From a virus, in IMG/VR virus record IMGVR_UViG_3300036393_000034, positions 1 to 25,205 of that record: a DNA stretch of 25,205 bases, one strand, 5' to 3'. The notes under the pieces are model-generated. The model did no database searches and had not been told where the DNA came from. It worked only from the letters and a program-made list of their open reading frames with translations. Below are positions 1-25,205 of this stretch, piece after piece. Each line of letters starts with the position of its first letter. The stretch's first letter is position 1. The translations under genes were made by a program, and so were the position numbers.

Positions 1-1572
1 ATGCCAGCGACGACCAGCGCGAGAGCAGCGAACAGCGCGACGAAGGGAGCGACAAGTAGCGCGAAGCGCCCCGATGCCCTGCGCGTTGCGCTGCACCCAA
101 AACAGTGGGTGGCGCTGCTCTCGCCGGCGACCGAGATCCTCTATGGCGGCGCGGCAGGTGGCGGCAAATCGCATCTGATGCGGCAGGCGGCGATCAGCTG
201 GTGTGCGGAAATTGCCGGCCTGCAGGTCTATCTGTTCCGCCGCATCCGCGAGGATTTGAGCAAGAACCACATGGAAGGCCCGTCGGGCTTTCGCGCCCTG
301 CTGGCCGGCTGGGTGGAGTGCGGCTTCGTCGTGATCGTCGAGGACGAGATCCGCTTCTGGAACGGCTCGAAGATCTATCTCTGCCACTGCAAGGACGAGA
401 AGGACCGCTTCAAGTACCAGGGCGCCGAGATGCACGTGCTGCTGATCGACGAGCTGACCCATTTCACCGAGGTGATCTACCGGTTCCTGCGCAACCGCGT
501 GCGGATGACCGGCATTGCGGTGCCGGAAAAATATCGCGGGCGGTTTCCCCGCATCCTCTGTGGCGCCAACCCCGGCGGCGTGGGGCACCAGTTCGTCAAG
601 ACGACCTTCATCGATGCGGCGCCGCCGCTCGACATCCACCGCACCAGCGCGACGGAAGGCGGCATGCGGCGCCAGTTCATCCCGGCGCGGCTCGAGGACA
701 ACCCCACGCTGACGACGGACGACCCGACCTATGAGGCGCGGCTCGAGGGGCTGGGGAGCGCGGCCCTGGTGCGCGCCATGCGGCATGGCGACTGGGACAT
801 TATCGATGGCGCCTTCTTCGATTGCTGGCAGACGCACCTGCATGTCATCGAGCCCTTCGCCATCCCCGAGGACTGGGCGAAATTCCGCTCCGGCGACTGG
901 GGCAGCGCCCGGCCGTTCTCGTTCGGCTGGTGGGCGATCGTCGGCGACGACGCCAGGCACCCGGCGACGGGTGTGCTGTTGCCGCGCGGCGCGCTGATCC
1001 GCTACCGCGAATGGTATGGGTGCGAACCCGGCAAACCCAACAAGGGGCTGAAGCTCACCGCCGAGCAGGTCGGCAAGGGCCTCGCGCAGCGCGAGACCGA
1101 AACCGTGGGGCTGGGGGTGCTCGACCCGGCGGCCTTTGCCGAGGATGGCGGCCCCTCGATTGCGAGCCGCATTACCCTGGGCTCGGGCGACAAGCGGATC
1201 TTCTTTCGCGGCGCCGACAACAAGCGCGTGTCGCAGCGCGGCGCCATGGGCGGCTGGGACATGCTGCGCCAGCGCTTCGTCGGCACCACGCTCGATGAAG
1301 ACGGCAAACCAAGCCCCGAGGGGCGGCCGATGATCTATTGCTTTTCCACCTGCCGCGACTCGATCCGCACCATCCCGATGCTGCAGCACGACCAGGCACG
1401 GCCCGAAGATCTCGATACCGACATGGAAGACCATGCCGCCGACGACTGGCGCTATGCCGCGATGTCGCGCCCCTGGGTGCGGACGAAGCCGGTGGCTGAG
1501 CCGGGGAAGGCGCGTTCGGGGTACCGGGCTGCGACGGGTGGCACCGGGCCGGGTGACTGGCAGAGTTATTGA
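1..1572 (+). CDS. terL: Phage terminase large subunit (ATPase-nuclease)
   Basis: This protein powers DNA packaging into the prohead and cuts the concatemer. The N-terminal ATPase shows a Q-motif-like LHPKQW (about 31-36), a Walker A GGAAGGGKS (49-57), a Walker B MHVLLIDE (144-151) and a coupling-type motif ILCGANP (185-191). The C-terminal RNase H-like nuclease has candidate acidic residues in SGDWG (D299), LDPAAF (D375) and DHAADDWRY (477-485). All key residues are present and 523 aa is normal for the family. The first ~28 residues are an Ala/Ser/Thr-rich tail of low complexity. The window begins at the start codon, so no upstream ribosome site or small terminase can be seen. The portal gene follows after a 277-bp gap filled by a palindromic element. 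The family assignment is strong; the mode of packaging (pac or cos) cannot be told. Confidence 0.95.
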   Translation: MPATTSARAANSATKGATSSAKRPDALRVALHPKQWVALLSPATEILYGGAAGGGKSHLMRQAAISWCAEIAGLQVYLFRRIREDLSKNHMEGPSGFRALLAGWVECGFVVIVEDEIRFWNGSKIYLCHCKDEKDRFKYQGAEMHVLLIDELTHFTEVIYRFLRNRVRMTGIAVPEKYRGRFPRILCGANPGGVGHQFVKTTFIDAAPPLDIHRTSATEGGMRRQFIPARLEDNPTLTTDDPTYEARLEGLGSAALVRAMRHGDWDIIDGAFFDCWQTHLHVIEPFAIPEDWAKFRSGDWGSARPFSFGWWAIVGDDARHPATGVLLPRGALIRYREWYGCEPGKPNKGLKLTAEQVGKGLAQRETETVGLGVLDPAAFAEDGGPSIASRITLGSGDKRIFFRGADNKRVSQRGAMGGWDMLRQRFVGTTLDEDGKPSPEGRPMIYCFSTCRDSIRTIPMLQHDQARPEDLDTDMEDHAADDWRYAAMSRPWVRTKPVAEPGKARSGYRAATGGTGPGDWQSY

Positions 1573-4132: not shown

Positions 4133-4897
4133 ATGAACGACACTGAAACGGTCGACGATACCGCCTTGTTCAATGCCACCGTCACGGGCGAGGCGCCCGT
4201 GGCCGAAGCAGAACCGGTCGTCGCGCCGGCCGAACCGCGGCCCGAACCGGCCATTCCCCCGGCCCGGCTTCGTGAGGAAGCCGATGCAAGGCGGGCGGCG
4301 GAGCGGGATCGGGATGAGCTGAAGCATCGGCTCAGCCGGCTCGAGGCGCAGCTGCAGCCGCAGCACCAGGCGGCCCGGCCGCCGGAATTCTGGGACAACC
4401 CGGATGAATGGGGCCGATCGCTGGTGACCCCGATCCACGAGCAGCTGTTCCAGCAGCGGCAGGGCGTCTCCCGCCTCCTGGCGGAAGAAAAGCATGGGGC
4501 GGACAATGTGCGGGCGGCCTACAACGCGCTTGGGCAGGCCATGCAGGCCGACCCGGCGGTGCAGACCGACTACCTCCGCATCATGCGCTCGAACCACCCC
4601 TATGGCGAGCTCGTCGCCTGGCACAAGAAGCGCCAGGCGTTCGATGAGATCGGCAGCGACCCCGCTGCCTATCGCAACCGCGTGCTCGACGAGGCGATGC
4701 GGGACCCCGAAGTCCAGCAGCGTTTCCTCGCCCAGCTGCGCGGCGCCGCCCAGCCCAATATCGAGGCCCCCCGTCGTTCAGCCGTGCCGCACATCCCCTC
4801 GCTGCAAGGCATCGGCACTGCCGCCGGCCCCGCATCCGCGGCCGGCGACCCCACCGATGCCGAGCTGTTCTCGGCAACCACCCGCCGGCGGCGCTGA
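4133..4897 (+). CDS. Scaffold-like head morphogenesis protein
   Basis: A 254-aa acidic, Glu/Ala/Pro-rich protein between portal and coat, where P22-like phages encode scaffolding protein. Residues 1-45 are an acidic Ala/Pro/Glu tail. They are followed by a charged helix (LREEADARRAAERDRDELK, likely coiled coil) and a helical middle with a PPEFWDNPDEW segment. The C-terminus ends in a basic TTRRRR, reminiscent of the basic coat-binding helix at the end of P22 scaffold. No enzymatic motif is visible. The assignment rests on position, charge pattern and helical character rather than on recognised homology. It could instead be a head protein of unknown role. The start has a GGGAGA ribosome site. 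Confidence 0.65.
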   Translation: MNDTETVDDTALFNATVTGEAPVAEAEPVVAPAEPRPEPAIPPARLREEADARRAAERDRDELKHRLSRLEAQLQPQHQAARPPEFWDNPDEWGRSLVTPIHEQLFQQRQGVSRLLAEEKHGADNVRAAYNALGQAMQADPAVQTDYLRIMRSNHPYGELVAWHKKRQAFDEIGSDPAAYRNRVLDEAMRDPEVQQRFLAQLRGAAQPNIEAPRRSAVPHIPSLQGIGTAAGPASAAGDPTDAELFSATTRRRR

Positions 4898-4935
4898 AGG
4901 CGCTGTAACCGGCTGAGCATCAGGACCATCAAGCA

Positions 4936-6138
4936 ATGGCTCTTTCTCCCAACCACCCCAATAATGAAGTGATCAAGTTCCGCCAGGATGTCGCCTACGA
5001 CTTCCTGCGCTCGTCGCGCTTCGACGCCTATATGGGCGACGATTCCACCTCGGTGATCGTGCGCATGTCGGACCTCGAAGCCGACGGCAAGGAGATCCGC
5101 GTGCCGCTCGTCACCCAGCTTTCGGGCGATGGCGTCGGCGCCGGCACCTTGCGCGGCAACGAAGAGCAGATCGACAGCTACGGCATGCCGCTCTGGGCCG
5201 ACTGGGCCCGAAACGCGGTGGCCAACAACCGGGCGCAGAACAAGGAATCTTCGTTCTCGGTGCGCTCGACGGCCCGGAGCCTCCTGCGTGGCTGGTCGAA
5301 GCGGATCGTCCGCGACGACCTGGTCGATGCGCTGCTGTCGATCCCCACCTCGGCAATGCAGGCCGGCCGCTTCGGCAATCCGGGCAACCGGGTCAACGGC
5401 ATCAAGTGGTCGGCGGCCACCGCCGGCAACAAGAATGCCTGGGTCACCGCCAACCCCGACCGCGTGGTGTTCGGCTCGGCGCTCTCCAACTACTCGACCA
5501 CCTTCGCGACCGCCGTGGGAAATGTCGACTCCGCCAACGACAAGATGTCTGCGGCGGTCGGGAGCCTGTTGAAGGACCAGGCCAAGCAGACCGGCGTCGA
5601 CCCCAACAACCCCGGCGTCTACAACGGCCGGCCCAAGATCAGCCCCTATATGGAAGCCGAGGGCGACCAGGAATGGTTCGTCTGCTTCCTCGGCGCCCGC
5701 GGTTTCCGCGACCTGAAGGCCGATCCGGTGATGACTGCCGCCAACCGCGACGCCCGCAACCGCGAGGGGGGCGACCCGACCAAGACCAACCCGCTCTTTA
5801 CCGGCGGGGCGCTGGTCTATGACGGGGTGATCTATGTCGAGATCCCCGAGATCACCCAGCGCCTGCTGCTGAAGGGCGCCGGCGCCGCGGGGATCGATGT
5901 CGAGCCGGTGTTCCTCTGCGGCCAGGGCGCTCTCGCCTACGCGCTCGGCCAGATGCCGCGCCCCACCACGCTCGAGGACGGCGACTACGACTTCGTCACC
6001 GGCATGGGCATCGAAGCCCAGTATGGGGTGGGCAAGATCGCCAAGGCCCCGCTGGCGGCGGGTGCCTCGGCGACCATCGGCAGCCTCGTCGACTGGGGCA
6101 TGGTGACCGGGTTCGTCGCGGGGGTGGGGAATAGCTAA
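4936..6138 (+). CDS. Major capsid protein, N4-gp56 / P22-like coat family
   Basis: The main shell subunit. The 400-aa protein has the typical layout of this coat group: an N-terminal EVIKFRQDVAYDFLRSSRF segment, then the conserved IRVPLVTQLSGDG and GNEEQIDSYGMPLWADW region. A middle domain follows with KDQAKQTGVDPNNP and an EWFVCFLGARGFRDL strand, and a C-terminal part carries a LCGQGALAYALGQMP motif. Length and position directly after the scaffold-like gene support this. The ATG is preceded by CAGGA about 10 bases upstream, a modest ribosome site for such a highly made protein. The next gene is 257 bp away across a palindromic element. Confidence 0.9.
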   Translation: MALSPNHPNNEVIKFRQDVAYDFLRSSRFDAYMGDDSTSVIVRMSDLEADGKEIRVPLVTQLSGDGVGAGTLRGNEEQIDSYGMPLWADWARNAVANNRAQNKESSFSVRSTARSLLRGWSKRIVRDDLVDALLSIPTSAMQAGRFGNPGNRVNGIKWSAATAGNKNAWVTANPDRVVFGSALSNYSTTFATAVGNVDSANDKMSAAVGSLLKDQAKQTGVDPNNPGVYNGRPKISPYMEAEGDQEWFVCFLGARGFRDLKADPVMTAANRDARNREGGDPTKTNPLFTGGALVYDGVIYVEIPEITQRLLLKGAGAAGIDVEPVFLCGQGALAYALGQMPRPTTLEDGDYDFVTGMGIEAQYGVGKIAKAPLAAGASATIGSLVDWGMVTGFVAGVGNS

Positions 6139-7867: not shown

Positions 7868-8320
7868 ATGGCACTGACCTATCCCGAATACGCCACCCCA
7901 CAGCCATCGCAGACCAGGCTCACCGACCTGCTCGACCTGTGGGACCAGGGCGTCGCGCAGGGCAAGGCCGATCGCTACGAGCGCGAAGCGCCGCGGCAAT
8001 TCGCGAACGCGGCCGCGCCGCTGTCGGAGTACGGCCTGACGACGCCACCCGACCAGTTGCGGGCCCTGTTCGCCAACCCCGAGACGCGTCCGTTCGCCGT
8101 GCAGATGGTGCAGGAGGCAACGGCCCGGCGCGCTGCTGCCAACGATCCAATCAGGCAGTTGCGGCTGAGGAAAGCACAGTGGGACTTGGCCCAGTCGCAG
8201 CTCGGTTCGGCCCAACCTGCTCCTGCTTCCACCGGGGGCGACGCGCCTCCTGCCGGCTGGCAGGACTCTCCAGAGGTCTGGAGCTACCTGACGCCTGAGG
8301 AGCGTGCCCTATGGAACTGA
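7868..8320 (+). CDS. Small conserved cassette protein A (paralogue of 13066-13554)
   Basis: A 150-aa protein about three-quarters identical, by hand alignment over its first ~104 residues, to the protein at 13066-13554. Shared runs include LTDLLDLW, QGVAQGKADRYEREAP and PPDQLRALFANPETR. The last ~45 residues are unrelated (a PAPASTGGDAPP linker then SPEVWSYLTPEERALW here). The ATG at 7868 follows AGGGAG at good spacing and matches the start of the paralogue. The frame is open back to the gp10 stub at 7727, so a 197-aa chimera is possible but unlikely. It overlaps the next gene by 10 bp. Function unknown; in the P22 order this is the slot of small ejection or ejection-chaperone proteins. Confidence 0.75.
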   Translation: MALTYPEYATPQPSQTRLTDLLDLWDQGVAQGKADRYEREAPRQFANAAAPLSEYGLTTPPDQLRALFANPETRPFAVQMVQEATARRAAANDPIRQLRLRKAQWDLAQSQLGSAQPAPASTGGDAPPAGWQDSPEVWSYLTPEERALWN

Positions 8321-9969
8321 CAATCGAACAACAGAAGGAGCTCGCTCTTGCCAGCGCTCGCAAGCGGCTGGTGGAAGCAGGAGCTTCGGCGGTCGGCAAC
8401 ACCAGGCAGGGCCAGCAGTTGGCCGACGGCGGTCCAGCCACGGCAGCAGGTCCTTCGCCCACATTTCTTGGGCAGCCGCTCACCTTTCAAGGAAAGCCGA
8501 TCCCCGCCAACTGGCTTGCTGATCCCGAGAACATGAAGCAGCTGATGGCGCCGTACTCATTGGCGAACCAGCCCTCGCTTAGTGAGGTGTTGGACGCGTT
8601 TCAGACGGGCGCGCATAATGGGATGACGTGGGGTTTCGGCGACGAGATCCAGGCCGGCCTCGAGACGCCCTTTCGCACGGCCGGGCAGGCGATCAACGGG
8701 GACCTGGTTGACCTCGGAAAGGCCTACGGCGCGGGCCTCGAAGAAACCCGCGCGCATATGGATGAGCGGACCAGCAAGGCGCCGGCGGCCGCATTCGTCG
8801 GAGAGCTTGTTGGAGGCCTCGTGTCTGGCAGCACCTTGGCCAAGGGAACGGAGATGGCCCTGAAAGCAGGGGTGCCCCTGCTCGAAGCAATCATGCGCGG
8901 GGGGATAGAGGGGGGCATCTACGGCGGTATCAGCGGGTTCGGAAACAGCCGGTCGGAGGACCTGTTGGGTCGTCTTGGGGATGCCTACATGGGGGCGCTG
9001 TGGGGCGTTGGTACCGGCGCGGCGATGACTGGCGGCGGAGCTGTGGCGAGCGGGGCCGGCAAGAGGCTGCCCGTTCAAACGGTCGAAGAGCTGAACGCGG
9101 CGGCACTCGCGAAGTATGCACAAGCCGGGGCCGCTGGCGTTAAGGCGTCCAAGCCACAGACCGCAACCCTCGCGACCTCCATCAGCGACATCGCGACGTC
9201 CAATGGGCTCGTCTCGCGTAGTGGCAAGCTGGACACCTCGAATCTCCGTATTCTTAACCTTATCAAGTCATTCGACGAGTTTGCGGGGCGCAAGATGAAC
9301 GTGCCCCAGATGCTGGCTCTGCGGGTAAAGCTCACCGACATGGCGAAAAGCAGCGAGCCCGCCGAACGGCGGATCGCCATGCAGATGCTCGAGGAGTTCG
9401 ACAGGTTCACGGACGAACTGGCGCCGACGCTGAAGGCAGGCAACGCACTTAGTCACAGTGCCACGAAGGGCGATCTCATCGAGAGCGCTATTGAACGTGC
9501 CCGCGTCAATGCTCGCGGACGCACTGGCTCGGAGTTCGAAAAGGCCCTGCGCACCGAGTTCGAGACCCTGCAGCATCAGATCATCAAGGGGGAGCTTAAG
9601 GGACTGACCGCGACCGAGATCGATGCGATCAACAAGGTTGCCGATGGCACGCCCTTGGCGAATGCCCTGCGTGGCATTGGGCAGCTCGCTCCACCAGGCG
9701 CAGTCCCCACCATGGCTCTCGGCATGGTTGCACAAGAACCCAAGCTTGGCGGATTAGCTGCCCTCGCGCTGGGCACGGCGGGGGTTGGAAGTCGCGTTGC
9801 CGCAAACACCCTGACCAAGAACGCCGCTGAATCGGCAGCCTTGATCGCACGGAACGGCGGCGTGGCCGTGCCGCGCAAGCAACTCACTGCAGAGGAATTA
9901 GCATTGATCGCGTGGCTGCGACGAGGGGCAAGTCTAGAAGCGGGTCAATTGCCTCTGGAGGTGCCATAG
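8311..9969 (+). CDS. Large ejection-type internal virion protein A
   Basis: A 552-aa protein starting inside the stop of the small cassette gene, after a GAGGAG ribosome site. The N-terminal part includes GMTWGFGDEIQAGLETP (about 104-120), a motif I associate with large phage internal proteins. Residues ~158-250 are glycine-rich amphipathic and membrane-active-looking helices (GELVGGLVSG, GGIEGGIYGGISGFG, GALWGVGTGAAMTGGG). A charged helical middle follows (LALRVKLTDMAKSS). Near the C-terminus are AINKVADGTPLANALRGIGQLAP and an Ala/Gly-rich segment. This architecture fits proteins injected into the envelope to help DNA cross, such as P22 gp16/gp20. Base composition looks less GC-rich than the head genes, suggesting separate acquisition. 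The role is inferred from architecture and position. Confidence 0.65.
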   Translation: MELTIEQQKELALASARKRLVEAGASAVGNTRQGQQLADGGPATAAGPSPTFLGQPLTFQGKPIPANWLADPENMKQLMAPYSLANQPSLSEVLDAFQTGAHNGMTWGFGDEIQAGLETPFRTAGQAINGDLVDLGKAYGAGLEETRAHMDERTSKAPAAAFVGELVGGLVSGSTLAKGTEMALKAGVPLLEAIMRGGIEGGIYGGISGFGNSRSEDLLGRLGDAYMGALWGVGTGAAMTGGGAVASGAGKRLPVQTVEELNAAALAKYAQAGAAGVKASKPQTATLATSISDIATSNGLVSRSGKLDTSNLRILNLIKSFDEFAGRKMNVPQMLALRVKLTDMAKSSEPAERRIAMQMLEEFDRFTDELAPTLKAGNALSHSATKGDLIESAIERARVNARGRTGSEFEKALRTEFETLQHQIIKGELKGLTATEIDAINKVADGTPLANALRGIGQLAPPGAVPTMALGMVAQEPKLGGLAALALGTAGVGSRVAANTLTKNAAESAALIARNGGVAVPRKQLTAEELALIAWLRRGASLEAGQLPLEVP

Positions 9970-13065: not shown

Positions 13066-13554
13066 ATGGCACTGAACTACCCCGACTACGTCGTCCCGCA
13101 GCCTTCGCCGACCAAGCTCACCGACCTGCTCGACCTGTGGAACCAGGGCGTCGCCCAAGGCAAAGCCGATCGTTACGAGCGCGAAGCGCCGCAGCAATTC
13201 GCTCAGGCTGCCGCCCCGCTGTCGCAATTCGGGCTAACGATGCCGCCCGATCAGCTGCGCGCGTTGTTCGCTAACCCGGAGACGCGGGCATTTGCGTGGC
13301 AGCAGATGCAAGAGGCATCACAGCGCCGGGCCGAAGCCTACGATCCGTTACGCCAGCTGCAACTCAAGCAGGCGCACTATGGCGCGGCCGGGGAGCCGCA
13401 ACCCGCGGCAACAACCGCTCTCTACCCCCCCATCCCTGCACCGCGCGAAGCGCGACCGACGCCACGCCCGCGACCCGGCATCGGCGCGATCGAAGGCGGC
13501 TACCGTTTCACCGGCGGTGATCCGTCCAACTCTGCCAACTGGGAGAAACTCTGA
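13066..13554 (+). CDS. Small conserved cassette protein B (paralogue of 7868-8320)
   Basis: A 162-aa protein with an N-terminal ~104-residue domain shared with the cassette A protein (LTDLLDLWNQGVAQGKADRY, PPDQLRALFANPETR). It then diverges into a Pro/Arg-rich linker and a short tail ending in NSANWEKL. The ATG follows AGGAG. Its stop codon overlaps the next start (TGATG at 13552-13556), so the two proteins are probably made in ratio. A conserved N-terminal domain with swapped tails, each paired with a different large protein, suggests that the tail contacts its own large partner. Function unknown; ejection accessory by context. Confidence 0.72.
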   Translation: MALNYPDYVVPQPSPTKLTDLLDLWNQGVAQGKADRYEREAPQQFAQAAAPLSQFGLTMPPDQLRALFANPETRAFAWQQMQEASQRRAEAYDPLRQLQLKQAHYGAAGEPQPAATTALYPPIPAPREARPTPRPRPGIGAIEGGYRFTGGDPSNSANWEKL

Positions 13555-15602: not shown

Positions 15603-15834
15603 TCCGCGTTCCATCCCAGGCCTCGTGCACGATCACCAAGACGAGCCCTGGGACAAACGCGATGCCCCAGACCATCCACCACGGCATCCACGGAAAGGCC
15701 AGAAAGAGGATCGCAACGACGAGTGCCGTCAGTATCCCGAGCGGCGTCGCGAGCTTCACGAGCCCGCTCATATCGCGCAGCAGGAAACTACCTTTTCGTC
15801 GGTACTCGTTCGGTTCAAGGTCCAGATCAGGCAT
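15454..15834 (-). CDS. Two-helix membrane protein (minus-strand moron)
   Basis: A 126-aa protein with two adjacent transmembrane segments (TPLGILTALVVAILFLAF and WWMVWGIAFVPGLVLVIV) and a Pro/Ser/Gly-rich C-terminal tail. I place the start at 15834 because that ATG overlaps the stop of the upstream minus-strand gene (TGATG), a typical coupling; an ATG ten codons earlier (15864) is also in frame. The C-terminal ~50 codons lie antisense to the end of the large ejection gene. No family recognised. It probably acts together with the gene at 15834-16229. Confidence 0.6.
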   Translation of the reverse strand: MPDLDLEPNEYRRKGSFLLRDMSGLVKLATPLGILTALVVAILFLAFPWMPWWMVWGIAFVPGLVLVIVHEAWDGTRIKRATETGAVPIVLPVPPGADSAFPKAGTAEDASQGRPPKGPSSQVSDP

Positions 15835-16229
15835 CAGATCACCGAGAAAAAGCGAACCAGGCACCAGATGAGCACCGCAGCCGACACAAAGGCCGCGAAC
15901 AGGCCCTGCATGGCGCTGTGAAACTCTTTCGAGGTCTGTCGCTCTCGCACCTCGAGTTCTTCAATAGCCTTTTCTTTCCACTTTGGATCGAGAAGCCGCC
16001 GCATCTCGGTTCTGCTTCTGAAGATCTCCTGCTTCAACTGGTCGAACTTTGCGCTGGTGGCTCGTCCCGTCAAATCGATCCCAACGTAAAGCACTCCGGC
16101 GAGGGTGACGATCATCACCTCGGTACGATCGGTCACCCGCCCGAGCACGTACCAAACAACGCCAAGCTGCGCCAAACTGGCCGCGATGGTAAAAAGGTAC
16201 GAGGTAACCAAGCGCAACGTACGCAACAT
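15834..16229 (-). CDS. Three-helix membrane protein with charged loop (minus-strand moron)
   Basis: A 131-aa protein with likely transmembrane segments SYLFTIAASLAQLGVVWYVL, VMIVTLAGVLYVGIDL and GLFAAFVSAAVLIWCLVRFF. Between the second and third lies a highly charged ~45-residue helix rich in Lys, Arg and Glu. The ATG at 16229 is preceded by GAGGGAAGG; an ATG 28 codons upstream gives a less likely extension. It is translationally coupled to the gene at 15454-15834. The pair's arrangement fits a small inner-membrane complex. Superinfection exclusion or another host-envelope effect is possible, but there is no homology to prove it. Confidence 0.62.
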   Translation of the reverse strand: MLRTLRLVTSYLFTIAASLAQLGVVWYVLGRVTDRTEVMIVTLAGVLYVGIDLTGRATSAKFDQLKQEIFRSRTEMRRLLDPKWKEKAIEELEVRERQTSKEFHSAMQGLFAAFVSAAVLIWCLVRFFSVI

Positions 16230-16391
16230 ACGGCCTTCCCTCACGCCAATATCGCGCGAACATAGTTGCGAAAGGCTTTGCTGGGAAGCCGGGCGGTCGT
16301 GCCCGCCAACCACGCAAACTCCCTTGAAGCGGGCTCACAAAATCTCACGAATACCGTCAGCTTTTGGACGATCAGGCATCAGGAGAACTTC

Positions 16392-16601
16392 ATGATGGAA
16401 GCAACAGTTAAGAAGCACACGGTCACAGATGAGTTGTTCGATGCAACCATCGCGGTTCTGCCCAGTGTGCTTCATCGCTACCTAGGGAGCGAAGAAACTG
16501 TCCCGAAACTTCGTGATGATGGCAAGGGCATGTCGCGAACTCTCGCTCCCGGCGTCGCTCATGTCCTGGTAACTCCCGGCGATAGCGAGTTGATCGGCTA
16601 G
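16392..16601 (+). pseudogene. Possible truncated plus-strand gene
   Basis: A 69-aa frame starting MMEATVKKHTVTDELFDATI, with an AGGAGA ribosome site well placed before the start. The first ~33 residues look protein-like (FDATIAVLPSVLHRYLGS). The rest lies antisense to the C-terminus of the minus-strand gene at 16482-16748 and looks like shadow sequence. It may be the head of a gene whose remainder was replaced when the minus-strand genes arrived, or simply a chance frame. Confidence 0.35.
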
Positions 16602-16748
16602 CTCGAAAGCACTCTCCACAGTCTTTCGATCGCTCGCCTTCAACGTGGCGAGCAGACCAACAAGCAGCCAGTGTGTCGCAAAGATGTGCCCCCTGAGCGC
16701 GGATATCTCCGCCTTTAGGACGGCAATCTCGTCGGCCTCGTCTTCCAT
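16482..16748 (-). CDS. Small helical protein with one hydrophobic segment (minus strand)
   Basis: An 88-aa protein beginning MEDEADEIAVLKAEISALRG (acidic, coiled-coil-like). It then has a moderately hydrophobic segment THWLLVGLLATLKA and a helical C-terminus ending RDSFFAP. The ATG at 16748 is preferred over 16772 because GGAGG lies about 7 bases before it. It is the first of three minus-strand genes in the island between the ejection and fibre genes. It is separated from the next by ~250 bp, so it may have its own promoter, though no clear promoter was seen. Function not recognised. Confidence 0.55.
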   Translation of the reverse strand: MEDEADEIAVLKAEISALRGHIFATHWLLVGLLATLKASDRKTVESAFELADQLAIAGSYQDMSDAGSESSRHALAIITKFRDSFFAP

Positions 16749-17829: not shown

Positions 17830-18168
17830 ATGTACGAGCTGCAGTTCTTTGCCACCGACGATGCCGACTGGGCGCAGCGGGTGGACCTGATCGACGACGC
17901 CACCAACCTGCCGCTGGCGACAGCCGGCGTGCTGTTCGAGCTCGAGGTGAGCGAAGCCGGCGCACGGCGGCTGTTCGCCTCGACCGCTGACAACAGCATC
18001 GAGATCCCCGAGCCGGGCACCATCCAGTGGCGCTTCAGCGTGCCTGAGCTTGGGGCGCTCGATATCCGCAACAGCTATCGGGTCGGCTGCCGGATGACCA
18101 ACGGCACCGGCACGACGCAGCTGTTCACCGGCACGCTGGCCTTTGTCGGAGGCGGGTTCGGCAGATGA
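17830..18168 (+). CDS. Small beta-rich tail-region protein
   Basis: A 112-aa protein between two fibre genes, starting 8 bases after the previous stop and overlapping the next start by four bases (ATGA). It is predicted beta-rich: YELQFFATDDADWAQRVDLID, VLFELEVSEAG, SIEIPEPGTIQWRFSVPELG, ending in a glycine-rich VGGGFGR. The pattern of a domain describing a strand-rich 'input' with Asp/Asn turns is common in small baseplate or fibre adaptor proteins. Family not certain. Strict coupling with both neighbours says it is part of the fibre assembly. Confidence 0.68.
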   Translation: MYELQFFATDDADWAQRVDLIDDATNLPLATAGVLFELEVSEAGARRLFASTADNSIEIPEPGTIQWRFSVPELGALDIRNSYRVGCRMTNGTGTTQLFTGTLAFVGGGFGR

Positions 18169-19739
18169 GCGACACCATCACCCCACGGCTGAGGATCAAG
18201 GCGCAGCCCGAATTCACGGTGCGCGCCAAGCCGGTGCCGCCGCCAAAAGTGCGGCTGCGCGTCACCCCGGCGCTGCTGCCGATGGAGATCGAACTCCGGA
18301 ACACCGGCACCATGGTGCAGTGGCGCTATCTCGGGCAGAACTGGCAGGATCTGATCGCCATCGACGACCTCGATACCACGGTGACGGTCGGCACCGTCAC
18401 CACGCTGCCGCCGGGCTCCCCAGCAGCGGTGGTCAATGTCGGCACCAGCAAGGACATGGTGCTGAACTTTTCCATCCCCGCGGGCATCCAGGGCATCCAG
18501 GGCAACGCTGCGACCATCGCGGTGGGGACGGTGACCACGGTCAGCCCGGCGACGCCCGCCGCGGTGAGCAACGCCGGCACCGCCAACGATGCGGTGTTCA
18601 ACTTCGCCATCCCGCAAGGCGCCGCCGCGACGCTCGCCGTAGGCACGGTAACGACGCTGACGCCGGGCAGCGCCGCCACCGTCACCAACGTCGGCACCTC
18701 CGGCGCCGCGGTGCTGAACTTCGGCATCCCGCGCGGCGCGCCCGGCATCCTGGCCTCCGTCGTGGCCGGAGCGAATGTGACGGTGGATAGCACCGACCCG
18801 GCCAACCCGGTGATCGCCGCCGCCGGCAGCGTAGCCGGGCCGGCGAGCGCCGTGGACAACCGCGTTGCGCTGTTCAGCGGCACCACCGGCAAGCTGATCA
18901 AGGACAGTGGCGTCATCCTCGGCGATTCCGCCGCGAGGAACGTGGGTACGACGGCCGGTACGATTGCGGCGGGAGATGACGGACGCTTCAACACCGTGCC
19001 GAACGACTACGTCACCAACGCCAAGCTCGCCAATATGGCGAATGCCACCGTGAAGGGCCGCAACACCGCCGGCGCCGGCGACCCTGAAGACGTGACCATG
19101 GCGCAGTTGAAGGTGCTCCTGGCACTGGCGGCCACCGACATTGTCTCGGGCACGTTCGCCGATGCCAGGATGCCTACGCGGCTGGGGACGGCAGGCAAGG
19201 CGATCACCGATTGGAACACCGCCGTCGAGAACGGCTACTACATTGCCGACAACGCCACCAACGCGCCGACTAATGCGGGATCGGGTGATTGGTACATGGG
19301 CCATATCGTGGCCCTCGCGGGCAACTACCTGCACCAATACCTGTTTCAGCTTTTCGACGGCAAAGCCTACCGGCGGTGGAACCTCAACGGCACCTGGAGC
19401 GCCTGGCTGCGGCTGCGCCCCGAGGGGTATCTGAGCGCCCGCGCCGTTGCCGGAACGACTGACACGCTCGTTTATGGCGACATGGGCGGTGTCGTAGAGT
19501 TCCAAAATGGGTCGGCGACCACGTGCACGGTGCCGCCCAACTCCTCGGTACCCTACCCCGTCGACACTATTATCAACCTCATGCAGTACGGCGCCGGGCA
19601 GGTGTCGATCGCCGCCGGAGCTGGTGTGACTGTCAGGTCGGAAAGCTCGAAGCTGAAACTGCGCGTTCAGTATTCGGCCGCGTCCCTGCGTAAGCGCGCC
19701 ACCGACGAATGGTGGTTGTTCGGAGACATCACGACATGA
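18165..19739 (+). CDS. Tail fibre with three beta repeats and a pyocin-knob-like end
   Basis: A 524-aa fibre protein. The N-terminus is basic and Pro/Lys-rich (AKPVPPPKVRLRV), then comes a typical attachment motif QWRYLGQNWQDLIAIDDL (about 52-69). Residues ~74-191 hold three degenerate repeats of ~40 aa, with VGTVTT at 75, 120 and 159 and each ending in LNFxIPxG or FNFAIPQG. Short collagen-like GIQGIQG lies between the first and second. The C-terminal half includes NATNAPTNAGSGDWYMGHIV and FDGKAYRRWNLNGTWSAW, a pyocin-knob-like pattern used in receptor binding. It overlaps the previous gene by ATGA and the next by ATGA. Confidence 0.8.
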   Translation: MSDTITPRLRIKAQPEFTVRAKPVPPPKVRLRVTPALLPMEIELRNTGTMVQWRYLGQNWQDLIAIDDLDTTVTVGTVTTLPPGSPAAVVNVGTSKDMVLNFSIPAGIQGIQGNAATIAVGTVTTVSPATPAAVSNAGTANDAVFNFAIPQGAAATLAVGTVTTLTPGSAATVTNVGTSGAAVLNFGIPRGAPGILASVVAGANVTVDSTDPANPVIAAAGSVAGPASAVDNRVALFSGTTGKLIKDSGVILGDSAARNVGTTAGTIAAGDDGRFNTVPNDYVTNAKLANMANATVKGRNTAGAGDPEDVTMAQLKVLLALAATDIVSGTFADARMPTRLGTAGKAITDWNTAVENGYYIADNATNAPTNAGSGDWYMGHIVALAGNYLHQYLFQLFDGKAYRRWNLNGTWSAWLRLRPEGYLSARAVAGTTDTLVYGDMGGVVEFQNGSATTCTVPPNSSVPYPVDTIINLMQYGAGQVSIAAGAGVTVRSESSKLKLRVQYSAASLRKRATDEWWLFGDITT

Positions 19740-20389
19740 CGATCCCGATCGGCATGTTTCTCGGCCCAAAGGTCGAGCCGCGGGGCGCTGATTGTACGAT
19801 GCTCTGCCATTTCGACGGTGCGAACGGTTCCACCGTGTTCAACGACGAGACCAGCCTGCAAACATGGAACGCGGGCGGCAATGCGAGGATTAGCACTGGC
19901 GCCGGCAAGTTCGGCGGCTCGTCACTTTACCTGGATGGGGCGGGGGACTTCATGATCCCGACCGGCTCACCAGTTGGGTTGTCATTTGGGACGGGCGACT
20001 ACACCATAGATTTCTGGTTCAACGGCGACCCCGGCATGAACGGGCTGACGTGGGATAGCCGCTCCAGCAGTTCGACCACCGGGCGGCTCTTGTTCGGCAT
20101 CTCGTTGGCCGGCATCGGCACAAGCGGCGCATTGTCCTCGGGCGTCTGGTATCACTATGCTCGCACCCGCTCGAGCGGCACTCGCCGCGAGTTCGTGAAC
20201 GGAGCCCTTGTTTCTAGCAGCTCTGAGACCGCCAACTACGGACTAGGCAGCAATCGGCCGGCTATCGGCGCCGACGGAAATGGCCTCGGTACGTCCTTCT
20301 ACAAGGGCTACCTAGACGAATATCACGTCCAGAAGGGCACCGCCCGCTGGACGTCGAGTTTTAGCCCGCCGGGCGCCCCCTACGCATAG
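19736..20389 (+). CDS. LamG / concanavalin-like putative receptor-binding protein
   Basis: A 217-aa protein with a LamG-like jelly-roll pattern: MLCHFDGANGSTVFNDE, GAGKFGGSSLYLDGAGD, then FGTGDYTIDFWFN, a VWYHYARTRSSGTRREFVNG strand pair and a final GYLDEYHVQKGTARW. Such domains bind sugars, and at the end of a fibre operon the likely target is a surface polysaccharide of the host. The ATG at 19736 overlaps the stop of the fibre gene (ATGA), so it is preferred over the upstream in-frame GTG at 19709. Composition is slightly less GC-rich than the head genes, as is usual for exchangeable receptor-binding genes. Confidence 0.75.
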   Translation: MTIPIGMFLGPKVEPRGADCTMLCHFDGANGSTVFNDETSLQTWNAGGNARISTGAGKFGGSSLYLDGAGDFMIPTGSPVGLSFGTGDYTIDFWFNGDPGMNGLTWDSRSSSSTTGRLLFGISLAGIGTSGALSSGVWYHYARTRSSGTRREFVNGALVSSSSETANYGLGSNRPAIGADGNGLGTSFYKGYLDEYHVQKGTARWTSSFSPPGAPYA

Positions 20390-20399
20390 GAGCATCTAA

Positions 20400-20651
20400 A
20401 TGCGTTTCCTCGACCCTGAAATTGCAGCTGTTCTGGACGTTAGGGGCGCGACACCCGAAGAGAAGGACGCACTGCTTGGCTTCATATTGAACCAGGCCGC
20501 GAGTGCCCGCGGCCGAGTAGCCGGCTTGCGTGGCAGTGCATCAGATCTCAACCGTCAGGCCGACGAGGCCGAAGCCCAAGCCGCGTCGCTCGAGGCAATG
20601 GTGGAGAAGTTTACGAATGAGGTGCCTGACGAAATCTTGGAAGGGCACTGA
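20400..20651 (+). CDS. Small coiled-coil protein, possible fibre accessory
   Basis: An 83-aa acidic helical protein (PEEKDALLGFILNQAASARG, then LNRQADEAEAQAASLEAMVEKF). It starts 10 bases after the LamG-like gene behind AGGAG. The second half is a plausible coiled coil. It may be a fibre chaperone or trimerisation aid, but nothing in the sequence proves this. Its last 41 bp overlap the end of the convergent minus-strand gene. Confidence 0.6.
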   Translation: MRFLDPEIAAVLDVRGATPEEKDALLGFILNQAASARGRVAGLRGSASDLNRQADEAEAQAASLEAMVEKFTNEVPDEILEGH

Positions 20652-21249
20652 GCGGACGCCTGAAGTAGCGCCGAAACTGCGCGCCGGCCCGAACCAACCG
20701 CGGGACCGTGAAAGGGCGTAGAATATCGTCCCATGCTCCGTTGTTTCCGCGCCAGTCGCCTTGCAAGGCACCGGCCTCTGGCTCGACCAGAAAGTGAAAC
20801 GTGCCTTTCGGGTTGAAGCGCCTAAGGGCCTCGCGCAACGCGGGAACATCCACTGGATAGGGCGCGCCGTGATTTGGTGCCACTACGACTAGGACAGGAT
20901 GCCGGTCGCGCAGAATCTTACGCAACTTGCCACAAAGATAGTCATGGCGCTTTCGCGCGCGCTCATAGTGCAAATGGATAGTTTCGTTTGTAACGCCGCT
21001 TGGAAACTCGTGCATGTGAGTAGTTCCAAGGGTCCGGTGAGCCACGTGACCCCGACCCGGATCGACGAACAGGTCGGCCTGCTCGAACATTCCTCGAAAA
21101 TCATTTTCTAGGTAGGCGATTACGGTCGCGACCGGCGTCTCTTGCCAATCGAAAACACCGCTGGGACTTGCAGCGCGAAACACGCGCTTCAATTGATACT
21201 TGACGCGGCACTGCAGGCCAAAGCTTATCGCATAGTGAACGGTTGGCAT
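20611..21249 (-). CDS. DUF1796 putative papain-like cysteine peptidase
   Basis: A 212-aa protein that starts with the family's hallmark VHYAISFGLQCRVKYQLK, then GVFDWQETPVATVIAYLENDF. Later blocks are HMHEFPSGVTNETIHLHYERARKRHDYL and VLVVVAPNHGAPYPVDVPALREAL. The Cys in GLQCR, the His residues in ETIHLH/KRHDYL and the Asn/Asp in the last block are candidates for the triad predicted for this family; no activity is proven. DUF1796 genes often sit beside glycosyltransferases, as here. ATG 21249 is chosen because the domain begins at once; a GTG at 21342 would add 31 residues with no better ribosome site. The gene looks less GC-rich than the neighbouring kelch-GT gene, hinting at a different origin. 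Confidence 0.75.
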   Translation of the reverse strand: MPTVHYAISFGLQCRVKYQLKRVFRAASPSGVFDWQETPVATVIAYLENDFRGMFEQADLFVDPGRGHVAHRTLGTTHMHEFPSGVTNETIHLHYERARKRHDYLCGKLRKILRDRHPVLVVVAPNHGAPYPVDVPALREALRRFNPKGTFHFLVEPEAGALQGDWRGNNGAWDDILRPFTVPRLVRAGAQFRRYFRRPLSALPRFRQAPHS

Positions 21250-21519
21250 GGGCAAACGATAGCTCACGGCGCCATGCTCAACAACGGGTCGCCGTGCTCG
21301 GGGCCCCCTATAGGAAACAGCTATGACCTCGGATGGCTGCACAAGCTCATGGCATCCGCCAGCGGCCGATTGGCCATTAGTGACTTCATTGATATTCGAA
21401 GTCCATCTCGGATGGTCGTTGATTGTCAGTCACGGCAGCGCTAGTCGGATGACCAACACCAGAGCTCGCTCCCTGGCAAGCGTCCTGACCTTGAGAAGCC
21501 GAACCAATCAGGAGGTGCA
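21250..21519. other. 270-bp gap between two minus-strand cargo genes
   Basis: There is no gene here beyond the possible GTG-start extension (to 21342) of the DUF1796 gene. No clear hairpin terminator or promoter was seen. The gap suggests that the DUF1796 gene need not be cotranscribed with the kelch-GT gene. Confidence 0.5.
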
Positions 21520-23802
21520 TCACCAGATCACCTCAAGCGCCTCGGCCAGATCACTCAGCAACTTGCCCTGCCGGAAGCGCAACAGGGCACTGTCGTGCCC
21601 TGCCTTGCCCAGCCGATCGGCAAGCTGTCGGTCGCGCACCAGAGTCTCCACCTGCCCCTGCAGCACTTCCTGGCCCACCTCCCCTGTCGGGTAAAGATAA
21701 CCGGTAACCCCGTCCTCGATGATCTCCGCCGTGCCACCGGCTGACGTGCCCAGCACCGGCAGGCCGAAGGCCATGGCCTCGGTGGTCACTCGGCCGAAGG
21801 CCTCGCCCCTGCCTTGTGCCGCACCCTGCGAGTTCATGACGAAGGCATCGCTCGCGAGGTAGAACGACGCGATCGCCGACTGCTGCACATAGGTTCGGGC
21901 CGGAGACAGCACGGCCCGCTCGTCTTCGGTCAGTTCCTTGAGAAGGGCTGAGCGGTCGGGGCGACCATGCATCCCGACGATCAACAACTTGATCGGGAGT
22001 TTGCGCGCCGCCGCCAGCCGGGCGATCGAGCCGATGAGCATTCGTTGCCCCTTTCTCGGCTCGAAGCTACCCACACAAAGCAGGACGAAATCATCCTTCG
22101 ACACACCAAGCCGGCTGCGAATGTCGTCGCGGCCGAGAACGACCGGACGTTGCCTGCGGGCTTGCGGTCTGGCCGGAAAGGGCAGCGAGGCGCGATCCGT
22201 CTGCTCGATGAAGCCATCGCTCAGCGGCGGATGCATGACGTGAACCCTGGGCGGCAGCGCTGCGGCGGCCTGCCAGGCGGAGCGCGCCGCGGCGCTGTCG
22301 AAGATCGCCAGGGCCGCCAGGTGCAGCAGCTCGGCGGCGTGCGAGAACATCTCGACATCGATCTCGTGTACCCACCAGACCAGACGCTGCCCCACAAAGG
22401 GATTGCTGGCCAGGCACCGACGCACCCAGGTGGCGGTCAGATCGCTTGCCGTATTGGCGATGACGGCGTCGGAGGCAACCGCGACGGCAATGGCATTTTC
22501 GATGGGGATCAGGGGCACGCCGAACTGACAGGCCAGATTCCAGCCCTTCACGTCGTCCGCTGCCGTCGCGAGGCGGACCGTGGCGCCGCACTCCATCAGG
22601 GCCTGCGCGGTTTCCAGCAACAGCAGTGGCGCCCCGCTGCGCGACAGATCATGCGAAACCAGCAGGATCTTCCTGCCGGCATAGCCCGCACTGTCGCGAA
22701 CCCGCGGCGCCGACGCCTTCGGCAGGGTCGTCTTCAGTGTTTCCCGGGTGATCTCGTCCGGCCTGTCACCATCCGGCCGGCTGCCACGTTGACCGGCGAC
22801 GACGAACAGGCGATCGCCGAGCCGGCCGGCGACCGGGATCTTGAGGGTGTACGGCAGCTGGCCCAGTATCGACCACCGATCCGCCACCGGATCGTAGGCT
22901 TGTATCGCGCCGGTCAGCCGCTGGTAGAATTCGTCCGGATCCTTGTAGACCTGCCCGCCAATCAGCAGGATGCGGCCGTCGACCACCACCGTCGAGGAGT
23001 CGCAGTGCGATACGGCGATGGGAACGTCCGCCACGCTGCTCCAATCGCCCGAAGGATCGGACAGCTGGAAGGCCGATGAGAGGTAGATCTCCGGTGTTCG
23101 CCCCGTGCAGGTGCATTGGGGATCGCCTGCGATCGGCTGGAAATCGCCCTGCTGACCGCCGAACACGTAGAGAGTATCGCCTACGACAGCGCTCGATCGG
23201 TGCATCCCGGCTACCGGAATGGGCTGCTCGGCCCGCCAGCTTGCCTCATCGGGGCGCCCCTCCGACACCGCAAGGCTCCAATGGTCGGCCCTTGCCGTCC
23301 AACGATCTTCGTCCGCGCCACCGACGACGTGCAGGCGCCCGCGCCAATACTGCATTGTGGCCGCGTAGCGAGGGGCCGGCACTGGAGGCAGCTCGCGCCA
23401 GCGATCCTCGCGGGTATCGTAGGAAAGCACGTTCGATACCGCGGGGCCGCACTGCGGCCCGAGCTGTCCTGATGCGAAGTAGATATGGCGGTGCCCATCC
23501 GAAGCGACCGCACAGTGAGAATGCGCCAGTCCGGCAGGGGTAGCTATGCGGCCAACCCAGCGTTCCCTGCGCATGTCGAACACGAAGATCTCTTCGTTCG
23601 TCGCGTCCAGCGATTTGTAGCCGCAGGCAACGTAGAGCAAGTCTCCGATCTGGGCGCCGCCGGCGTCCAGCAGCGGTTCGGGGCACGGCGCGGCGTTCGT
23701 CCATTCCAGTCCATCCCGCGGCGCCCTCCGCCTGAGCCACCATGCCTCGGCCTCGCGCCCCCATCGCCTGGGGTTCTTCAGCCACGCAGAAACCCGGACC
23801 AT
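21520..23802 (-). CDS. Fusion of kelch beta-propeller and GT4-family glycosyltransferase
   Basis: A 760-aa two-part protein. Residues ~45-345 hold six kelch-like blades with LYVACG (56), IYFASG (107), LHVVGG (157), LYVFGG (211), ILLIGG (278) and LFVVAG (332), each followed by a Trp-containing segment such as REDRW or VADRW. Residues ~375-760 are a GT-B fold glycosyltransferase: GRKILLVSHDLSRSGAPLLL (376-395), a WWVHE motif (476-480), donor-side LLCVGSFEPRKGQ (574-586), and the GT4 E-x7-E signature EAFGRVTTE (667-675) with AGGTAEII. No signal peptide or membrane helix is evident, so action is probably cytoplasmic or peripheral at the inner membrane. The ATG has GGGAGA before it. The substrate is unknown; the propeller may bind an acceptor or partner. 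It lies against the phage genes, as conversion cargo would. Confidence 0.85.
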   Translation of the reverse strand: MVRVSAWLKNPRRWGREAEAWWLRRRAPRDGLEWTNAAPCPEPLLDAGGAQIGDLLYVACGYKSLDATNEEIFVFDMRRERWVGRIATPAGLAHSHCAVASDGHRHIYFASGQLGPQCGPAVSNVLSYDTREDRWRELPPVPAPRYAATMQYWRGRLHVVGGADEDRWTARADHWSLAVSEGRPDEASWRAEQPIPVAGMHRSSAVVGDTLYVFGGQQGDFQPIAGDPQCTCTGRTPEIYLSSAFQLSDPSGDWSSVADVPIAVSHCDSSTVVVDGRILLIGGQVYKDPDEFYQRLTGAIQAYDPVADRWSILGQLPYTLKIPVAGRLGDRLFVVAGQRGSRPDGDRPDEITRETLKTTLPKASAPRVRDSAGYAGRKILLVSHDLSRSGAPLLLLETAQALMECGATVRLATAADDVKGWNLACQFGVPLIPIENAIAVAVASDAVIANTASDLTATWVRRCLASNPFVGQRLVWWVHEIDVEMFSHAAELLHLAALAIFDSAAARSAWQAAAALPPRVHVMHPPLSDGFIEQTDRASLPFPARPQARRQRPVVLGRDDIRSRLGVSKDDFVLLCVGSFEPRKGQRMLIGSIARLAAARKLPIKLLIVGMHGRPDRSALLKELTEDERAVLSPARTYVQQSAIASFYLASDAFVMNSQGAAQGRGEAFGRVTTEAMAFGLPVLGTSAGGTAEIIEDGVTGYLYPTGEVGQEVLQGQVETLVRDRQLADRLGKAGHDSALLRFRQGKLLSDLAEALEVIW

Positions 23803-24081: not shown

Positions 24082-24801
24082 ATGGACCCCAACGTGCCCC
24101 GCGGCGCGGCGATGCTGCTCGATTTCATTGCCGGGCTCGAAACCAACCGGCCGGGCGAGGCCGGCTACCAGGCCATCATCGGCTATCGCAACGAGAAGCC
24201 CGGCACGCTGCCGAGGCCGATTACCGGGATGTCGCTCGAGGAGCTGCTGGCCGAGCAGAAGCGCTGGGTGAAGAACCTCAAGGCGCCGAGCGGCGCCGCC
24301 GGGCGCTACCAGATCATCCGGCCGACCCTGCTCAGCCTCATTGCCGAACTCGGGCTGCCGCTATCGGCGACCTTTACTCCCGAACTGCAGGATCGCCTCG
24401 GGTTCGCCCTGCTGAAACGCCGCGGCTGGAACCAGTTCGCCGCCAGAACCCTGTCGCTGCGTGACTTCGGCAATCGCCTGGCGCGCGAATGGGCGAGTGT
24501 TCCGGTACTGAGCCGGCAGCAGGGGGCACATCGCACCGTCGAGCGCGGCGAAAGCTACTATGCCGGCGACGGCATCAACGCCTCGCTGGCCCGGGCCTCG
24601 GAAGCCGAAGCCGCGCTGGCCGAAGTGCTGAGGGCCCTGTCCCCGCCGGCGCCGACCCCTGGCCCTGTCCCCGCCCCTGCTCCCGCGCAACCCCAGCCCG
24701 GCCTGCCCGCCCGACGCGGCTGGCTCGGCTGGACCATCCTCGCGCTGCTCATTGCCGCGGGCCTCGTCACCGCCGCCTTCACCCTCCCGCTTCCGTTCTG
24801 A
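24082..24801 (+). CDS. Endolysin, lambda R-like (GH104-type) fold with C-terminal membrane anchor
   Basis: A 239-aa cell-wall lytic enzyme. Residues ~10-150 follow the lambda R endolysin pattern: LLDFIAGLE with the likely catalytic Glu20, GYQAIIGY, SGAAGRYQIIRPTLL with GRYQ at 74-77, FTPELQDRLGFALLKRRG, and REWASVP. Lambda R is a lytic transglycosylase that cuts MurNAc-GlcNAc bonds. Unlike lambda R, it continues into a Pro/Ala linker (~188-210) and a single hydrophobic helix (GWLGWTILALLIAAGLVTAAF, 213-233) ending four to six residues before the C-terminus. There is no N-terminal signal or SAR helix. This suggests a tail-anchored enzyme. The ATG follows GGAGA. The holin-like gene follows after 11 bases. 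Confidence 0.78.
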   Translation: MDPNVPRGAAMLLDFIAGLETNRPGEAGYQAIIGYRNEKPGTLPRPITGMSLEELLAEQKRWVKNLKAPSGAAGRYQIIRPTLLSLIAELGLPLSATFTPELQDRLGFALLKRRGWNQFAARTLSLRDFGNRLAREWASVPVLSRQQGAHRTVERGESYYAGDGINASLARASEAEAALAEVLRALSPPAPTPGPVPAPAPAQPQPGLPARRGWLGWTILALLIAAGLVTAAFTLPLPF

Positions 24802-24812
24802 GGACACCCGAA

Positions 24813-25205
24813 ATGACCGCCTTCCTGTCTTCCATCACCACCCAGTGGTGGCTCCGTCGCCTGTGGGATTGGGGCGGCCAGTTGTCCGGCTGGCTGGGCG
24901 GCCTGCTGGCCCTCTATGGCCTGATGCCGGCCGACATGCAGCACACCCTCCTCGCCATTCTCGGTGGCCGGTGGGGCGAGATCAGCCTCGCTTCGGCCGG
25001 CGGCTTCCTCGTCTGGGCCATCACCCAGTGGCGCTCCTACGTCGCGACGGTGAAGCCGCAGATCGTCACCAAGGCCGGCAAGCGGGCGGAGCTGCGCGAG
25101 CTGCCCCGCGGCACCGTCAGCGCCGTCGAGGAATTCGCCCACACCGCCATCCTCAAGCGCGGCGAGACCCTGGTCGAAAAACTCCTCAGACTGGGGAGGC
25201 CGTGA
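24813..25205 (+). CDS. Holin-like membrane protein
   Basis: A 130-aa protein with a Trp-rich N-terminus (TTQWWLRRLWDWGG), a first hydrophobic stretch (LSGWLGGLLALYGLM) and a second (SLASAGGFLVWAITQW). A charged, basic C-terminal ~55 residues follows (KAGKRAELREL, LVEKLLRLGRP). Two membrane segments, size and position beside the endolysin gene fit a holin, which forms lethal inner-membrane lesions at a set time. The GAGGA ribosome site sits at the endolysin stop (TGAGGA). No Rz/Rz1 spanin pair is visible in the window. Family-level homology was not recognised, so the call rests on topology and context. Confidence 0.62.
   Translation: MTAFLSSITTQWWLRRLWDWGGQLSGWLGGLLALYGLMPADMQHTLLAILGGRWGEISLASAGGFLVWAITQWRSYVATVKPQIVTKAGKRAELRELPRGTVSAVEEFAHTAILKRGETLVEKLLRLGRP

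Follow-up and report, generated by a model that had tools for sequence, protein, structure and literature searches.

A gene joining a six-bladed kelch propeller to a GT4-type GT-B glycosyltransferase was found in the window (the whole stretch of DNA analysed, an IMG/VR record of 25,205 bases), whose carrier is a podovirus-like provirus of Devosia, a soil bacterium. The best explanation, to which we give a probability of about one half, is that the gene encodes a cargo enzyme whose propeller docks the acceptor and which changes the surface polysaccharide of the host, and hence binding by the tip protein of the element or by phages. Its nature as glycan-modifying cargo is well supported; we infer that the propeller is the acceptor dock, that a surface glycan is the target and that adsorption changes. 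The first base of the record belongs to the ATG of the terminase large subunit gene (terL) and the last to a stop codon, and the record was probably trimmed at gene boundaries. Its main features are:

1..1572, (+) strand: terminase large subunit, terL (PHROG terminase)
4936..6138, (+) strand: major capsid protein (30-35% identical to the capsid proteins annotated in cyanophages Pam1, Pam5 and Pan3)
18165..19739, (+) strand: fibre protein, upstream of the tip gene (PHROG tail/structural matches)
19736..20389, (+) strand: LamG tip protein, exchanged between elements (Laminin_G_3, 4.5e-11; tip comparison)
20611..21342, (-) strand: DUF1796-like gene, directly downstream of the fusion gene (weak family match, Pfam E 0.014, below cut-off)
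21520..23802, (-) strand: kelch-GT4 fusion gene, 760 residues (open reading frame and translation; Pfam)
21523..22680, (-) strand: GT-B glycosyltransferase of GT4 type, residues 375-760 (Glyco_trans_4_5 and Glycos_transf_1; relatives Alr3699, BshA and WaaG in the PDB)
21778..21804, (-) strand: E667-x7-E675 motif (invariant in alignments A1 and A2)
22783..23706, (-) strand: six-bladed kelch propeller, residues ~33-340 (Pfam kelch models; fold match Z 30-32)
24082..24801, (+) strand: endolysin (phrog_90 lysis, 2.4e-26)
24813..25205, (+) strand: holin-like gene at the end of the record (assigned by position and sequence)

Elsewhere in the window, two similar proteins (positions 7868-8320 and 13066-13554, starting MALTYPEY and MALNYPDY) apparently represent a duplicated module. 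Small open reading frames, some with hydrophobic starts, lie amid the structural genes at 15834-16748 on the (-) strand, and similar ones occur in other elements. A pattern scan with positions 8311-9966 returned one locus only.

The fusion gene is a single intact frame with an ATG start, and a purine-rich ribosome site lies immediately 5' of it in the window and in its relatives; no promoter was recognised by a consensus scan. Three kelch models of Pfam match above their curated cut-offs (Kelch_6, 8.8e-21; Kelch_1, 3.7e-17; Kelch_2, 1e-12), and the repeated motifs close a six-bladed beta-propeller. The earlier note had placed six blades by GG-type motifs; the positions are right, but a literal GG is present in only three of the six (CGY 60-62, SGQ 111-113, GGA 161-163, GGQ 215-217, GGQ 282-284, AGQ 336-338). 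A match to the NanM/YjhT type was weak (1.5e-11) and below the cut-off in both Pfam and NCBIfam. In the predicted structure (mean pLDDT 69.4) the propeller is confident and the glycosyltransferase half moderate. On searching with the model, the kelch part matched six-bladed kelch domains with Z 30-32 over 258-291 residues (rmsd 1.9-2.9); the whole-model search was filled by kelch chains, and these fold matches thus concern the propeller and not the other half. By hydropathy, no transmembrane helix was seen in the fusion protein or its slot neighbours (highest 19-residue hydropathy 1.7).

The C-terminal half matches Glyco_trans_4_5 (1.3e-21, residues 376-513) and Glycos_transf_1 (3.7e-28, residues 558-735), both above the curated cut-offs; the latter scores 98.7 bits against a cut-off of 26.4. 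Residues E667 and E675, together with K584 of the K-G-Q region, are conserved without exception in the aligned relatives, the most distant of which have 45% identity, in agreement with the full GT-B enzyme with an E-x7-E signature described earlier. From its domains and motif, this half is predicted to act as a retaining GT-B glycosyltransferase of the GT4 type. Among the related models and structures are enzymes of envelope polysaccharides, namely Alr3699 (PDB 4xso), the EpsE and HpsO models and WaaG. A role in defence was considered and dropped: neither the fusion protein nor the DUF1796-like protein nor the neighbour in locus L021 had a match in PADLOC, and a weaker GT4-conflict match overlaps the ordinary glycosyltransferase domain.

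Copies of the fusion gene with 81-95% identity were found in four viral contigs, and two Devosia genomes carry it as well (MAG-137, 96%; Root413D1, 81%). Besides the copy of the window, five distinct ones (81-96%) stand at the same place. Loci L005 and L007 have identical sequences, and L004 hardly differs from them; the loci therefore outnumber the independent copies. From the matches in Devosia genomes, Devosia is the inferred host both of the window and of L002-L004. The fusion is rare by our estimate, and the earlier claim that it is unusual agrees with the genome sampling: it was present in 1 of 385 alphaproteobacterial and 1 of 395 Rhodobacteraceae genomes, in each case the genome taken as the centre of the sample, these figures being estimates since scoring in the two large samples was limited to two candidates per genome; within the genus Devosia it was present in 2 of 19 genomes. 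Against phage records the protein gave only single-domain matches of at most 36% identity.

No copy has a broken frame, and between diverged copies the dN/dS of the whole gene is 0.15-0.18 (kelch part 0.11-0.14, glycosyltransferase part 0.18-0.21). Hence, the gene is not a chance product, and both halves are under purifying selection; in close pairs of copies the ratio is higher (0.19-0.33). In comparisons of the window with L002 and L006 the glycosyltransferase half is more diverged than the propeller, a hint that the 3' part of the gene has recombined.

In the window the fusion gene lies between the LamG tip gene (19736-20389) and the endolysin and holin-like genes (24082-25205), and the reverse-strand site between fibre/tip and lysis genes given in the earlier note is confirmed by the gene calls with Pfam and PHROG. 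This slot is variable and its glycosyltransferases are exchanged. In the window it holds the fusion and DUF1796-like genes, in L021, L002 and L006 the fusion gene and a 271-residue gene, and in L023 and L007 the fusion gene and two genes with weak matches of glycosyltransferase type or to DUF1647, with DXD-type glycosyltransferase-like sequence noted for L023. Genome G012 has a GT2 gene and a DXD-type glycosyltransferase-like gene there, and G015 a GT2 gene; no glycosyltransferase gene occupies the slot in G010, G917, G918 or G920. Among these slot neighbours only the GT2 match of the G012 gene, which shares 80% identity with the G015 gene, exceeds the Pfam cut-off. The 271-residue neighbour (L021 and L006) was tried as a glycosyltransferase and rejected, as there was no Pfam or NCBIfam match, the relatives were unannotated and a single-sequence model reached a pLDDT of 32. 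The low GC3 (0.60) of the DUF1796-like gene suggests a recent arrival; its homologues lie just beyond the holin end of the element in G015 (joined L032-L034, 7713-8339) and G012 (joined L035-L037, 36683-37213).

The LamG tips share 29-52% identity where copies align. Between the window and L021 the tip has 32% identity and the fusion protein 95%, and the fusion and lysis genes of the window are nearly unchanged with respect to L021 and L002 (dS 0.04-0.08), with the tip and the neighbouring enzyme both replaced. The double replacement is suggestive, though seen in one comparison only. The fusion and endolysin genes of the window differ from those of Root413D1 with a dS of ~0.55-0.62, the head genes with one of 0.17-0.38, and this end of the element therefore has its own history. 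The pairing of tip and glycosyltransferase is not obligatory, because in some elements, such as L131, a LamG tip occurs with no glycosyltransferase. In L022 (~8976-9285) a remnant copy of the endolysin gene, 77% identical over 318 bases, lies beside the fusion gene, and in L003 and L022 the fibre and tip genes are missing beside such a remnant. A common insertion route does not follow from this, as the window gave no match and L023 only one of 44 bases.

The elements of G012 and G015 extend from a small-terminase (TerS)-like frame to the holin-like genes and have host-type genes on both sides. No integrase, repressor or replication genes were recognised in them, nor an integrase or repressor in their flanks. 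A fuller relative in G920 (a 62-kb contig, L133-L136) has helicase-, primase-, repressor- and serine recombinase-like genes, named from the sequence by eye, and a TerS of 134 residues with a helix-turn-helix-like start, also by eye. The corresponding frames of the Devosia elements, whose loci are L032-L034 in G015, L035-L037 in G012, L019 and L007 in G006, and L038 and L137 in G010, encode 96-101 residues, overlap terL or lie just before it and, by eye, lack such a start:

joined L032-L034, 33930-34235, (-) strand: TerS-like frame
joined L035-L037, 11351-11656, (+) strand: TerS-like frame
L019, 6838-7128, (-) strand: TerS-like frame
L038, 10351-10656, (+) strand: TerS-like frame

The small-terminase-like protein thus seems to be without its DNA-binding part. 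The neighbourhood on the terL side is common to G006, G010, G012 and G015, with local rearrangement, and that on the holin side is common to G006 and G010 and, separately, to G012 and G015. The dS values of element and flanks (~0.15-0.62 and 0.1-0.57 for G006/G010; 0.04-0.8, with one small protein at 1.4, and 0.2-0.57 for G012/G015) overlap over wide ranges, which fits vertical inheritance and is no proof of it. In MAG-137 the neighbourhood genes are present and the element is not beside them on the contig examined; an empty site was sought through a flank gene, and the neighbourhoods of the genomes were too different to show one. The capsid gene of G012 is split by a frameshift (L036 ~4844-6042; G012 C1:814844-816042), either by decay or by an assembly error. 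The carrier would appear to fit the picture of an ordinary temperate phage less well than was assumed and to resemble a gene transfer agent. A bolder reading, somewhat unlikely in our view, is that of a domesticated podovirus-like gene transfer agent of Devosia in which a cassette of tip and glycosyltransferase turns over at one end; the particle-encoding element would then also encode enzymes, the kelch enzyme among them, that shape the surface glycan recognised by those particles.

According to the preferred explanation, the product would be a soluble, cytoplasmic glycosyltransferase of GT4 type, encoded as cargo in the variable slot of the Devosia provirus-like element. The gene is probably transcribed on its own, because its orientation is opposite to that of the late genes. 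The propeller may dock the acceptor, either a glycan precursor or a protein, onto which the GT-B half would move the sugar from a nucleotide sugar. The most likely effect would be an altered surface polysaccharide of the host, which could change binding by the exchangeable LamG tip of the element itself or by other phages. Points against this explanation are the chromosomal orthologues, the tip without a glycosyltransferase in L131, the failure to recognise a promoter and the moderate model of the glycosyltransferase half.

The orthologues (two, 45-48% identity) are chromosomal genes of Rhodobacteraceae with no phage genes nearby, and because they exist, the enzyme does not need a phage. The one in Celeribacter is next to a cluster of flagellar genes and the second has ordinary chromosomal genes around it, a placement which, like the seemingly vertical inheritance of the element, would suit a host gene for surface-glycan or flagellar glycosylation, captured and kept for the benefit of the host with no effect on phage adsorption. 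This is somewhat unlikely, as the same slot beside the tip genes is repeatedly filled by different glycosyltransferases. Alternatively, the enzyme could glycosylate the particle proteins of the element itself (LamG tip or fibres), with the propeller binding the virion protein as acceptor. In its favour, the Devosia loci have the gene close to those for tip and fibres, and the top fold matches take in kelch structures determined with a peptide bound (Keap1, KLHL3); in a mycobacteriophage study (PMC11256854), capsid glycosylation is deduced from two phage glycosyltransferases. This target is nonetheless improbable, given that the gene is transcribed against the late genes, that the orthologues lack any phage and that window and L021 share only 32% identity in the tip, with the enzyme still at 95%.

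The full proposal of the earlier note was lysogenic conversion with self-exclusion of sister phages. In Kapi1, glycan modification by a prophage goes with an O-antigen receptor (PMC8787464), and this precedent, as well as the position of the cargo beside receptor-binding genes, makes a receptor change with exclusion plausible. Yet the Devosia elements have no integrase, repressor or replication genes, no active sister phage is evident, and the fuller relative in G920 has no glycosyltransferase in the slot; the proposal as a whole is distinctly unlikely. What survives of the conversion gene is a non-structural cargo in a provirus slot that elsewhere holds other glycosyltransferases; against it stand the missing genes, a chromosomal neighbourhood shared by four genomes, the occurrence of the gene as an ordinary chromosomal one in the two Rhodobacteraceae and the absence of the gtr membrane layout. 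A decaying prophage remnant with the gene heading for loss is very unlikely: the frameshifted capsid gene of G012 and the loss of fibre and tip genes beside the endolysin remnant in L003 and L022 would fit, but the copies, even diverged ones, keep the frame intact and have a low dN/dS, which opposes it.

Phage-carried glycosyltransferases and glycan modification are already known, for example from Kapi1 (PMC8787464). A kelch-GT4 fusion in an exchangeable slot beside a tip gene was not found in a limited literature search, and, as far as the searches go, both the kelch fusion and its occurrence in a slot where glycosyltransferases vary are new. If the propeller picks the acceptor, the protein would offer a tractable model of how a soluble glycosyltransferase selects its acceptor; should the carrier be a gene transfer agent, particle tip and recipient glycan would be linked in one element.

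The gtrABC seroconversion module has a membrane-embedded transferase with a flippase and GtrB beside it. The fusion gene is like such modules in being a phage-carried, glycan-modifying enzyme as cargo, but its product is a soluble GT-B protein with a kelch domain and no transmembrane segment, and no gtr cluster (flippase, GtrB) was present among the called neighbour genes. With Alr3699 (PDB 4xso), EpsE, HpsO and WaaG it shares the GT-B family and the E-x7-E region, but it scores far below the cut-offs of the named families (EpsE, 66 bits against 400) and has a fused propeller. Keap1, KLHL3, NS1-BP and the designed SAKe propellers have the same six-bladed kelch fold (Z 30-32), but at 18-23% identity, and in the window protein it is fused to an enzyme. 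NanM/YjhT, an N-acetylneuraminate epimerase, is likewise a bacterial kelch carbohydrate protein, its match to the fusion being weak and below cut-off. As for the carrier, it recalls RcGTA and BaGTA (features from PMC11841831) in combining structural and lysis genes with no recognised integrase or replication gene; vertical inheritance and a TerS-like protein that lacks its DNA-binding part would be further likenesses, at which the Devosia elements hint. It differs from both in its podovirus-like module and its variable glycosyltransferase cargo.
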